Shown here piece after piece: positions 26,633 through 29,732 of a DNA stretch of 64,000 nucleotides (positions are counted from its first letter, which is position 1; each line of letters starts with the position of its first letter). The stretch comes from Sulfurimicrobium lacus (GTDB lineage: Bacteria; Pseudomonadota; Gammaproteobacteria; Burkholderiales; Sulfuricellaceae). The translations under genes were made by a program, and so were the position numbers. The DNA lies in contig NZ_AP022853.1 in the NCBI RefSeq assembly GCF_011764585.1, forward strand, positions 2,761,501-2,825,500, in the 5' to 3' direction. Under the pieces are notes generated by a model. That model did no database searches. It worked only from the letters and a program-made list of their open reading frames with translations, and was not told the DNA's origin.

Positions 26633-27802
26633 TTATTCTTTAGGCCAGTAGTCCGTGGCAATGCCGTCGCCCAGGTCTGCTTCGATCAGGCGGCGGCGCA
26701 CTTCGAGCAAGCGTGCGATCAACTGCGGCTCCTGCTGACCATATGCATCGGCATCCGCCACCCGGTTGACCACCACGCCGAGCAATTCGGTAATCGCGTT
26801 GCCGATGGAATTCTGGCTGATCGTGACAATCAGCTTGCCTTCGTCGTTGCGGTATATGAGCTGCTTGAACGCCGGTTGCCAGCGGATGGCGTTGGCATAC
26901 TTGGCATCGGTAATGCAGCGGTCCCGGACCTTCTTCGCCGTCTTGAGAAAGTCGTTGTTGAACAGCAGCACGTTTTCGACCTGGTCCGGAAAATAAAGAT
27001 CGGGCAGCATCGGCGCGTTGCGCGAGGAAACCTGCGAGAAGAAACTGCGATAGAAATCGATAAAACCCTTCAGCACCAAGTCATATTCATGCCAGAAACG
27101 CACGTCTTCCAGCGCCGCCGCGCCGCCGGGAATCTCCCAGCTCGGCAGGCCCTGCGGGTAGCCGGTCAGCCCCAGGCGCGCGGCGTCGTCGCTCACCGGC
27201 CGCAAGACCTCCAGGTGCAGCGCCTGGCAAATGAATTCTCGATAGGCATCGTGCATGTACATCTCGAATAGCGAGTGCTGGCCGCCATCGGTGAGATTGG
27301 GGTTTTTCGGGTCGGCCAGCTTGGCATCGCGCAGCTGGTCCATGGAAAACACGATGAAATGGTTGTGCAGCATGCGGATGCTGGGCACGCCGGGAGAGGT
27401 CAGGGGCCAGGTCGCATCGAGGCTCGCCTCCCCCGCCAGCACCAGGTGCTGCGCGGGATCGGGGAATTCTTCCAGCATATAGTCGATGATGATCTGGTTC
27501 ATCCGGTTCCACACGTGTTTGACGTTGTCCGGCACCTGGGTACGGCGCACTGGACGCCCCAGAGGATTGAGGACGATCTGCGACGTGTTGTAGATGATCG
27601 ATGCATCGAAGACGTTGCTATGCCCCAGCGCCTTGCGGTAAAGCAGCAAATTTTCCGGATTCAGCAGCAGCCCGTTGTTGTTCACCAGATCGTTGAGATT
27701 TTCCGTGCTGTTGAAAAATTCGTTGGGCTTCATCCCCTCAGGCACGTCCAGGGGAATGGGGCGAAAAGGGGTAACGATCTCGCGTGGGCCGGATTGGGTC
27801 AT
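26633..27802 (-). CDS. Uncharacterised 389-residue soluble protein
   Basis: I do not recognise this family. The start MTQSGPREIVTPFRPIPLD (27802) is preferred over a frame extension that would begin inside the adjacent inverted repeat. There is no signal peptide or membrane helix. Notable segments are LHNHFIVFSMDQLRDAKL with an H-x-H pair, HSLFEMYMHDAYREFICQ, and ITISQNSIGNAITELLGV-like C-terminal helices; it is rich in Asn, Asp and aromatic residues. It lies alone between hfq and der, which are usually neighbours in Betaproteobacteria. The palindromic element ends 31 bp before its ATG. Codon use looks like that of neighbouring genes, so recent foreign origin is not obvious. Confidence 0.8.
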   Translation of the reverse strand: MTQSGPREIVTPFRPIPLDVPEGMKPNEFFNSTENLNDLVNNNGLLLNPENLLLYRKALGHSNVFDASIIYNTSQIVLNPLGRPVRRTQVPDNVKHVWNRMNQIIIDYMLEEFPDPAQHLVLAGEASLDATWPLTSPGVPSIRMLHNHFIVFSMDQLRDAKLADPKNPNLTDGGQHSLFEMYMHDAYREFICQALHLEVLRPVSDDAARLGLTGYPQGLPSWEIPGGAAALEDVRFWHEYDLVLKGFIDFYRSFFSQVSSRNAPMLPDLYFPDQVENVLLFNNDFLKTAKKVRDRCITDAKYANAIRWQPAFKQLIYRNDEGKLIVTISQNSIGNAITELLGVVVNRVADADAYGQQEPQLIARLLEVRRRLIEADLGDGIATDYWPKE

Positions 27803-27833
27803 GGTGGATATGCCTGAGTGATATGTGGGGCTA

Positions 27834-28100
27834 GTGTAGTGTTGCACGCTAAACGGCACTTTCAGCGAGCGCCTGGGCGGCCAGATGCAAGACGCGGGTG
27901 CGCCGGAATAGTCACTCTATTCCAAGCGCCCGCAACGCCGCAGATGGCCACCCAGGCGCTCGCCCGGAGGGAGCCTTCCCAAGAGCGCCCTAACCGCGTT
28001 GCGGCGCTTGGCAAGGGAATAGCCATTGCCTGCGCGCCGCGCCTTGTTATGCCACTTTTGGGAAGGCTCTGAAAGTGCCGTTTAGCGTGCAACACTACAC
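27834..28100. mobile_element. 267-bp MITE-like palindromic element with 32-bp perfect terminal inverted repeats
   Basis: The 32-bp ends (27834-27865 and 28069-28100) are perfect inverted repeats. Inside, 27865-27883 pairs with 27945-27963 (18 of 19) and encloses a hairpin centred on GGAATAG/CTATTCC (27905-27923). Next, 27971-27982 pairs perfectly with 28058-28069 and encloses a second hairpin (about 28001-28040). The two lobes are imperfect inverted copies of each other. There is no open reading frame for a transposase, and no flanking target duplication could be seen. The remaining 225 bp to der (28101-28325) holds no recognisable gene, only CGATGCA/TGCATCG inverted repeats. Confidence 0.7.
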
Positions 28101-28325
28101 AAGCGATGCAGCTTTTTACCACAGCCGACAAACGCCGGGCAGCAAAAAATTCGAATATGAGGATAAGGCTATTGCATCGTTGACAAAACGCAGGATATTT
28201 TGGCGACGAGGCGCAGCCGAGCGACCATTTTGTCTCGCGCTACTGCCCCTGGAGCCAATTCATCTTCGATGGAGAGGTTGCTTCAACGATGCGCCACACA
28301 TTTCGCGCCCATTCCTTGCACGCAC

Positions 28326-29732
28326 TCAGTACTTCTTGCCGTAGGCCTTCCTGCTGCGCCGCCTCTTGCTGCGCGCTGCATTTTCATCGGCTTCGGTTTT
28401 AGGTGCGGGCTTGCGGTCGGCAAAGGGATTGCTGCCTTGTTTGAACTGTACGCGCAGCGGCGTGCCCTGCAGTTCGAACGCCGTGCGGAAAACGCCTTCC
28501 AGATAACGCTTGTAGCTGTCCGCCACGTTCGCAGTTGCCGTGCCGTGCACGATCACCAGCGGGGGGTTGGAGCCGCCCTGATGCGCATAACGCAATTTGG
28601 GCCGGATCGGACCGACCTTGGGCGGTTGATGCTTTTCCGTCGCGGCGATCAGCACGCGCGTCAGCATGGGCGTCGACATCTTCTTCATCGCCGCCGCGAA
28701 GGCGCCGTCGATGGACTTGAACAAACCGCCCACGCCCGTGCCCTGCAGGGCGGAAATGTAATGATATTTGGCGAATTCGAGAAACTGCAGCTTGCGCGCC
28801 AGATCGCTCTTGATCACCTCGCGCCGCGCCTCGTCCAGGCCGTCCCACTTGTTGATCGCCACCACCAGCGCCCTGCCCGCTTCGAGAATAAAGCCGGCGA
28901 TATGCGCGTCCTGTTCGGAAACATCCTGGCGCGCGTCCAGCACCAGCACCACCACGTTGGCGTCCTCGATCGCCTGCAGCGTCTTGACGACCGAGAATTT
29001 CTCAATCGCTTCGAATACCTTGCCGCGTTTCCGTACACCCGCGGTATCGATCAGGGTGTAGCGCCGGTCGTCGCGCTCCAGGTCGATATAGATGCTGTCG
29101 CGCGTCGTGCCGGGCTGGTCGAAGGCGATCACGCGCTCTTCGCCGAGCAGACGGTTGACCAGCGTGGATTTGCCCACGTTGGGGCGACCGACGATGGCCA
29201 CCTTGGGATGGTCGTCCTTCTCCTCGCTCTCCTCCTCATCGGGGAAGTCGGCCAGCGCCAGTTCCACCAGCTCGCGCACGCCTTCGCCGTGCGCGCTGGA
29301 AATCACCAGCGGGACGCCGAGGGCTAGTTCGTGGAACTCCGCCGCCACTACTTCGCGGCGCATACCTTCGGCTTTGTTGACGGCGAGAAACACCGGCCGG
29401 CCGGACTTGCGCAGCCCCTCGGCGATGGTCTTGTCCTGCGGCGTCAAGCCTTGGCGCGCGTCCACCAGGAAGATGATGCAATCCGCCTCGTCGACGGCCT
29501 GCAGCGTCTGCTTCGCCATTTCATGCAGGATGCCGTCTTTGGCAACCGGCTCGAAACCGCCGGTATCCACCACCAGGTAAGGCTTGCTGCCCACCAGGCC
29601 GTGACCGTAATGGCGGTCGCGGGTCAGCCCGGGCAGGTCGGCCACCAGCGCATCGCGCGTCTTGGTCAGACGGTTGAAAAGCGTGGATTTTCCGACGTTG
29701 GGGCGACCAACCAGGACTAGGGTAGGCTTCAT
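28326..29732 (-). CDS. der: Ribosome biogenesis GTPase Der (EngA)
   Basis: The 468-residue protein has two tandem GTPase domains, unique to Der. The first P-loop is [15 protein letters not shown] at the N-terminus and the second [16 protein letters not shown] near residue 183. Each is followed by DxxG and NKxE/NKWD motifs. A KH-like C-terminal domain and a basic tail ([15 protein letters not shown]) follow. It is essential for 50S subunit assembly. Its start overlaps the bamB stop by 4 bp. Confidence 0.96.

Follow-up and report, generated by a model that had tools for sequence, protein, structure and literature searches.

The 267-bp stretch at 27834-28100 of the window, by which we mean the whole 64,000-nucleotide segment of the Sulfurimicrobium lacus genome that was analysed, is a mobile non-coding MITE. 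Its palindromic sequence is bounded by perfect terminal inverted repeats (TIRs) of 32 bp and holds two lobes, inverted relative to each other, round a CCC-NNN-GGG centre. We put at about 85% the probability that it is a non-autonomous DNA transposon (MITE) with a conserved folded body and relies on a transposase from elsewhere to bind its TIRs. In the mechanism that we propose, the transposase encoded elsewhere would bind the TIRs and move the element in trans, and it would be an IS5-family enzyme of the DDE type with TNA, TA or YTAR targets. The interior is unlike a decayed transposase gene: around the centre, two inverted hairpin lobes form a folded body that is conserved. MITEs are usually viewed as internally deleted copies of one insertion sequence (IS). 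In the present family, across many genera, conservation and structure reside in the interior and variation in the ends, which makes it possible to test whether a MITE interior plays a part in transposition.

Anatomy and genomic setting of the element

The left TIR (27834-27865, plus strand) is the exact reverse complement of the right TIR (28069-28100, minus strand), and the length and terminal repeats reported in the first-pass annotation of this DNA proved exact to the base. A repeat search gave TIR arms of 36 nt at 97% once they were lengthened by 4 nt. The TIR ends of the window copy are GTGTASTGTTKCACGCTAAACGG, and the same ends occur at L002, L003, L017, L018, L033 and L043. Eleven paired copies of this TIR type, of which seven are full length, have the ends GTGTASTG..CASTACAC; in these copies the TIR was set by the search pattern and the boundary by the flanks.

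Lobe 1 (27865-27963, plus strand) consists of an outer arm, asymmetric internal loops and an inner hairpin. Within it lies the 57-nt lobe core GCAAGRCGCG..CGCAACGCCGCAG (27887-27943, plus strand), which by its length and invariant alignment columns is the most conserved part of the family. A mini-hairpin, CCC-GGA-GGG, occupies the centre (27963-27971), and lobe 2 (27971-28069, minus strand) is an inverted copy of lobe 1. The description of the two hairpin lobes as imperfect mirror copies is borne out by their arm pairs in the repeat search, which match at 88% over 24 nt in lobe 1 (27865-27888/27940-27963) and at 83% over 24 nt in lobe 2 (27971-27994/28046-28069), where the outer 12 are perfect. 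It is also borne out by R1, a lobe covariance model for which 27 elements, the window's among them, each supplied the left lobe. R1 matched both lobes on opposite strands, lobe 1 with 71.0 bits, being itself among the 27 in the model, and the right lobe, which is absent from the model, with 64.7 bits on the minus strand. The lobes are thus homologous and inverted. Folding of 27830-28104 as DNA gave -113.8 kcal/mol against a mean of -56.3 for shuffled sequences (z -14.9), and none of 200 shuffles equalled it; the opposite strand folded as RNA gave -196.4 (z -16.2). The open reading frames that overlap the element just run through the palindrome, and the view that it is non-coding and lacks a transposase stands.

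The element had been placed between hfq and der. On one side this is right: der, encoding the EngA GTPase, occupies 28326-29732 on the minus strand (Pfam MMR_HSR1 and KH_dom-like, the EngA C-terminal domain). On the other side the element does not directly adjoin hfq, as a 389-aa gene intervenes (26633-27802, minus strand), for which a longer 408-aa frame had no match in Pfam. A search of 8 genomes of the genus found this gene in 7, the own genome among them, with 85-90% identity in the six others.

Copies, empty sites and target duplications

The own genome holds two further full copies of the window TIR type at 86% identity, plus fragments, and genomes of the same genus carry more copies, up to 93% identical. 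Some part of the window element was matched in 17 of the 61 genomes searched, own included. By lobe model and TIR search, the element is absent from all five sister loci anchored on both flanking genes (L250-L254); L251-L253 alone are plainly alignable empty sites by eye, L250 being shorter and L254 longer with an unrelated stretch. At L255, which has no der anchor, neither the lobe model nor the TIR gave a match, and in G002 the neighbouring 389-aa gene was not matched.

The left flank of the window copy is TA (27832-27833), presumably a 2-bp target-site duplication, and the right flank is AA (28101-28102) where most other copies have TA, so that the duplication is degenerate, if it is one at all. 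TA is found on both sides in 8 of the 11 paired copies of this TIR type, and the own genome's three full copies, the TA/AA window copy among them, all depart from TA at one end. In Paracidovorax wautersii, which yielded 43 exact cores and 158 TIR matches, the 3-bp TNA flanks are identical at 33 of 35 end pairs, and their context is mostly C-TNA-G; of the two exceptions, one is a second pairing within L256.

The copies with differing flanks, the five sister loci without the element, the TA and TNA duplications in relatives and the lack of an internal transposase support the earlier suggestion of a MITE, which would be moved in trans. Copies with variable flanks and an empty site in relatives had been proposed as the proof of mobility, and both were found. 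A single copy, its presence in all relatives and a lack of compensatory changes had been named as refuting observations, and none of the three was borne out. A cruciform-forming site had been another suggestion; a fixed site of this kind is ruled out, and such a function of this locus is not supported, because the anchored sister loci lack the element.

Shorter forms were also seen. Palindromes of about 47-53 bp made of two TIR ends alone lie at G000:C1:161034-161086, 1797674-1797724 and 2152587-2152639 and at L191 and L204, and they are apparently internal deletion products of the element. G021, from another genus of the family, carries at three places (L039, L169 and L186) a 94-95-bp element with the window's TIR and a different interior.

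The two-lobed family and its conserved fold

The lobe core GCAAGRCGCG-N-CGCAACGCCGCAG measured 57 nt in 16 of the first 20 examples, and the exact core pattern was found in at least 120 stretches of genome contigs. The genera among the matches listed include Acidovorax, Paracidovorax, Curvibacter, Polaromonas, Thiobacillus, Nitrosomonas, Methylobacillus, Thioalkalivibrio, Halopseudomonas and others; these taxa are a sample, and the names Planctomycetes and Acidobacteriota, attached to metagenome-assembled genomes, may reflect misbinning. A slightly looser core pattern matched 36 of 399 genomes of the order, own included, while the reversed control pattern gave 0 matches. Across the phylum, the looser pattern matched 8 of 397 genomes, own included, five of which lie outside the class. 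In viral contigs (IMG/VR) the lobe core pattern was present in five (L164-L168), and L167 carries a complete 269-bp element. The window element used as query found one record among plasmids, an Azotobacter plasmid matching in the lobe part only, and no match among the phages searched. Likewise a P. wautersii copy found one plasmid record (Comamonas) and none among the phages searched.

Of 118 cores at 117 loci, 103 have an enclosing inverted repeat and 78 yield elements of 255-295 bp; those left unused comprise 15 without an enclosing repeat, 20 with shorter pairs and 5 with longer ones. Adding the window copy and a further 13 elements, drawn from the own genome and from relatives, to the 78 gives 92 rows (91 distinct). 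Their median length is 269 bp, and 85 of the 92 measure 261-275 bp. They sort into 16 TIR groups. In the own genome, R1 found at least 49 lobe matches at 36 places, 47 of them at E below 1e-6 and two weak (E 0.002 and 0.009); the count of 49 is a minimum, because scoring covered 150 of the 1926 candidates from the first look. Matches at 36 places take up a sizeable part of a 3.8-Mb genome, and the covariance model allows annotation of elements that are easily overlooked by sequence search. All 13 double lobe matches in the own genome are in plus/minus order. At 24 places examined there, the same body lies under at least five TIR types, GTGTASTGTTKCAC, GGGCTCGTTAATG, GGGCSTGTTAA, GGAACCYCTGATYAAG and ATCCTAGAAACC (the last on 240-bp elements), and two places have no TIR. 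The types GGGCTCGTTAATG and GGGCSTGTTAA may be distant relatives. In G040 (L030 and L042) a one-lobe version was seen with the TIR CAGGCYGTTGAAAAAC and matching TTAC or TTAG flanks, and its core is common with lobe 1 of the window.

The fold of the family is conserved and most of the sequence is not. For this analysis 27 of the 92 rows were aligned: a filter at 82% identity left 30, and L061_6685, L088 and L097 were dropped by hand, L061_6685 being the same element as L061_1146 on the other strand. In the 27 elements, 88.7% of 2385 cells were paired against a shuffled mean of 59.2%, and slid partners gave 35.8-41.7%; the consensus structure was derived from this same alignment and is therefore favoured over its slid versions, and the rows are phylogenetically non-independent. 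Two-sided changes were observed in 82 of 89 pairs, and none of 500 shuffles of the 27 elements attained any of the five measures. The CCC/GGG centre, with its three C-G pairs, is invariant in 27 of 27, as is nearly every core position in GCAAG.C and AAC.C.G.

The level at which the fold is kept was addressed with counts of wobble mismatches, for which two sets were used, 29 non-redundant elements (the 30 less L061_6685) and all 92 rows. In the 92 rows, with the plus strand folded and G.U forbidden, the TIR stems hold 72 G.T and 77 A.C, and the lobe-1 outer arms hold 49 and 58. Because RNA selection on one strand should give many more G.U than A.C, these counts do not support a structured RNA as the reason for the palindrome, which had been another of the early suggestions. 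The lobe-1 inner stem leans to G.T, with 24 against 9 A.C in the 29 elements (p 0.014). In the 92 rows this stem gave 85 against 27 on the plus strand when G.U was allowed, and 47 against 26 (plus) or 36 (minus) when it was forbidden. These counts leave room for some single-strand selection at the lobe-1 inner stem. The lobe-2 outer arms gave 39 G.T against 17-20 in the 92 rows with G.U forbidden, and 17 against 21 in the 29. In a control of 15 tRNAs from the examined loci and the window there were 16 G.T and 0 A.C, a count biased by the tRNA finder, which may mark allowed pairs only. A strand bias of the inner lobe 2 seen in the first wobble count was rejected as a folding artefact; its sign flips with the strand folded.

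An alternative would make the element a structured non-coding RNA, in which the lobes are kept because a folded transcript has a function of its own, for example as a terminator, an sRNA or a site for RNase III, and mobility is secondary. The very stable fold, the excess of G.T in the lobe-1 inner stem and the position of the elements mostly at gene 3' ends would fit such a transcript, but we hold it to be improbable given the near-equal G.T and A.C counts in the TIRs and lobe-1 outer arms, as against 16 to 0 in the tRNA control, and given the artefactual origin of the lobe-2 inner bias. Nor did Rfam offer a family: at the gathering threshold nothing was found in the element, the window's one match being a tRNA elsewhere, and a permissive search of the element gave a best E of 0.1 (24.4 bits against a cut-off of 83).

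We infer instead that the palindrome is kept at the DNA level. Selection for a DNA hairpin or cruciform used in transposition may maintain it, or copying from arm to arm, or the two together. The body may help transposition or spare the host. That copying alone is at work, with arms matched by template switching in the absence of structural selection and the shape a by-product, we consider rather unlikely. The balanced mismatches in the TIRs and lobe-1 outer arms suit such copying, as do the short TIR-end palindromes of about 47-53 bp and the changes of neighbouring pairs in blocks between copies of the same genome (inner stems of G393), but copying alone would not keep the length within 261-275 bp in 85 of 92 rows. 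Moreover, the asymmetric loops of the core are unpaired and yet conserved, and arm copying alone is therefore insufficient to account for them. In the lobe core the sequence itself probably matters, for example as a putative protein site.

No publication naming the two-lobed family was found in a literature search that covered few subscription journals, and as far as our searches show it is unnamed. The available parts of two reports describe bacterial MITEs (RUP, NEMIS/Correia, ERIC, Nezha and Coxiella QMITE) as short and non-coding, with TIRs, target duplications, mobilisation in trans and a stable fold (PMC10969869, PMC3733652). The window family resembles them in being short and non-coding and in its TIRs and stable fold; unlike them, its two-lobed body spans many TIR types and bacterial classes, whereas in these excerpts MITE families are described singly. 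The CIR elements of Caulobacter and other alpha-proteobacteria are described in part of another report as having two long inverted-repeat arms and a linker, with the structure kept between genera (PMC2229807). By description, CIR elements are about 110 bp long with GANTC motifs, whereas the present elements (267 bp in the window) have TIRs, TNA or TA duplications and a GCAAGGCGCG/CGCAACGCCGCAG core. BRE, a 75-91 bp repeat of Bordetella counted also in Polaromonas, Acidovorax and Delftia (Hot et al. 2011, PMC3110155), is in the available portion of that report usually intergenic, suspected to be mobile and often tandem (VNTR), and TIRs go unmentioned there. The often tandem arrangement of BRE differs from that of the lobes here, which lie in inverted pairs inside TIRs and are inverted in all 13 double matches noted above; BRE is set apart by description only.

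Terminal repeats, transposases and insertion sites

IS5-family genes of P. wautersii abut the TIRs GAGCCTGTTTACGATCT and GAACCTGTTTACGATCT, which match the MITE TIR at 15-17 of 19 nt and have the same target context. A complete IS of 841 bp with a TCA duplication lies at L222, and its TIR matches a Curvibacter MITE TIR at 17-18 of 19. The L222 frames match NCBIfam NF033580 (IS5 family), the second above the cut-off and the first below, and Pfam DUF4096/DDE_Tnp_1. A further TIR type, GGAACCTCTG, starts about 75 bp ahead of a gene annotated as an IS5 transposase on a plasmid of Methylomonas. The flanks there are TTAA and CTAA, and the right end matches less well; this TIR was found in nine plasmid records, and one of the three examined adjoins an IS5 transposase. 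In P. wautersii and Methylomonas the IS5-family IS resemble the present elements in their TIR ends and in having TNA or YTAA at the flanks. They differ in carrying a transposase, and L222, the one complete copy examined, is filled by transposase frames with little room for lobes.

From these matching ends, IS5-family transposases are the likely source for the P. wautersii elements, and the enzyme of the window element would by analogy with this relative also be of the IS5 family. A pattern search of 22 genomes of the bacterial family showed no autonomous element with the window's TIR. At 16 loci with this TIR, where the first 60 residues of each open reading frame were inspected by eye, there were solely full MITEs, derivatives of about 95 bp and 47 bp, and solo TIRs. 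Plasmid searches gave four records for the window's TIR and three for the GGGCTCGTTAATG type, all at E 1 or worse, and the exact pattern of the window's TIR had no match in the viral contigs. In the own genome there was no DUF4096 match, and for its two DDE_Tnp_1 genes no paired matching ends were found.

Movement by a single-strand transposase (HUH, REP/RAYT-like) or an integrase is hardly credible for these elements. The inverted imperfect hairpin pairs might recall REPINs, and structure kept over sequence might recall integron attC sites, but the defined TIRs, the 2-3 bp target duplications and the TIR-matched IS5 genes are against such a mode; the look for GTAG tags and attC boxes was by eye.

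For a MITE moved by IS5-type enzymes, the occurrence of the same body under different TIRs across lineages suggests that the body may either have followed diverging IS5-type transposons or have been re-ended onto them. The differing terminal repeats apparently let the element borrow the enzymes of different transposons. We offer tentatively, and at less than even odds, the wider proposal that one DNA body colonised many transposition systems, keeping its shape and core while exchanging or re-evolving its TIRs, and that the hairpin or cruciform shape together with a core-bound protein would make it a good passenger of IS5-type systems.

The neighbouring genes, defined by simple calling of open reading frames, were convergent in 12, codirectional in 13 and divergent in 2 of 27 cases in P. 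wautersii (L256-L283), and 3, 16 and 2 of 21, respectively, in the own genome (L296-L325), where 14 of 22 gaps to a gene 3' end do not exceed 10 nt. An open frame of at least 100 codons is closed by 17 of 32 duplications in P. wautersii, compared to 31 of 104 background CTRAG sites (Fisher p 0.02); this enrichment at stop codons is suggestive only, since true stops and insertions count among the background sites. It would be explained by the purging of insertions that fall within genes.

Solo TIR ends were observed in G061, which has 12 exact 16-bp ends GAACGTGTTCACGATC with TNA on both sides (L206, L209, L211, L213, L273, L286, L287 and L289-L293), 10 of them with TCA on both sides. In 10 of the 12 a flank closes an open frame of at least 100 codons, and these solo ends look like excision or deletion footprints at stop codons.
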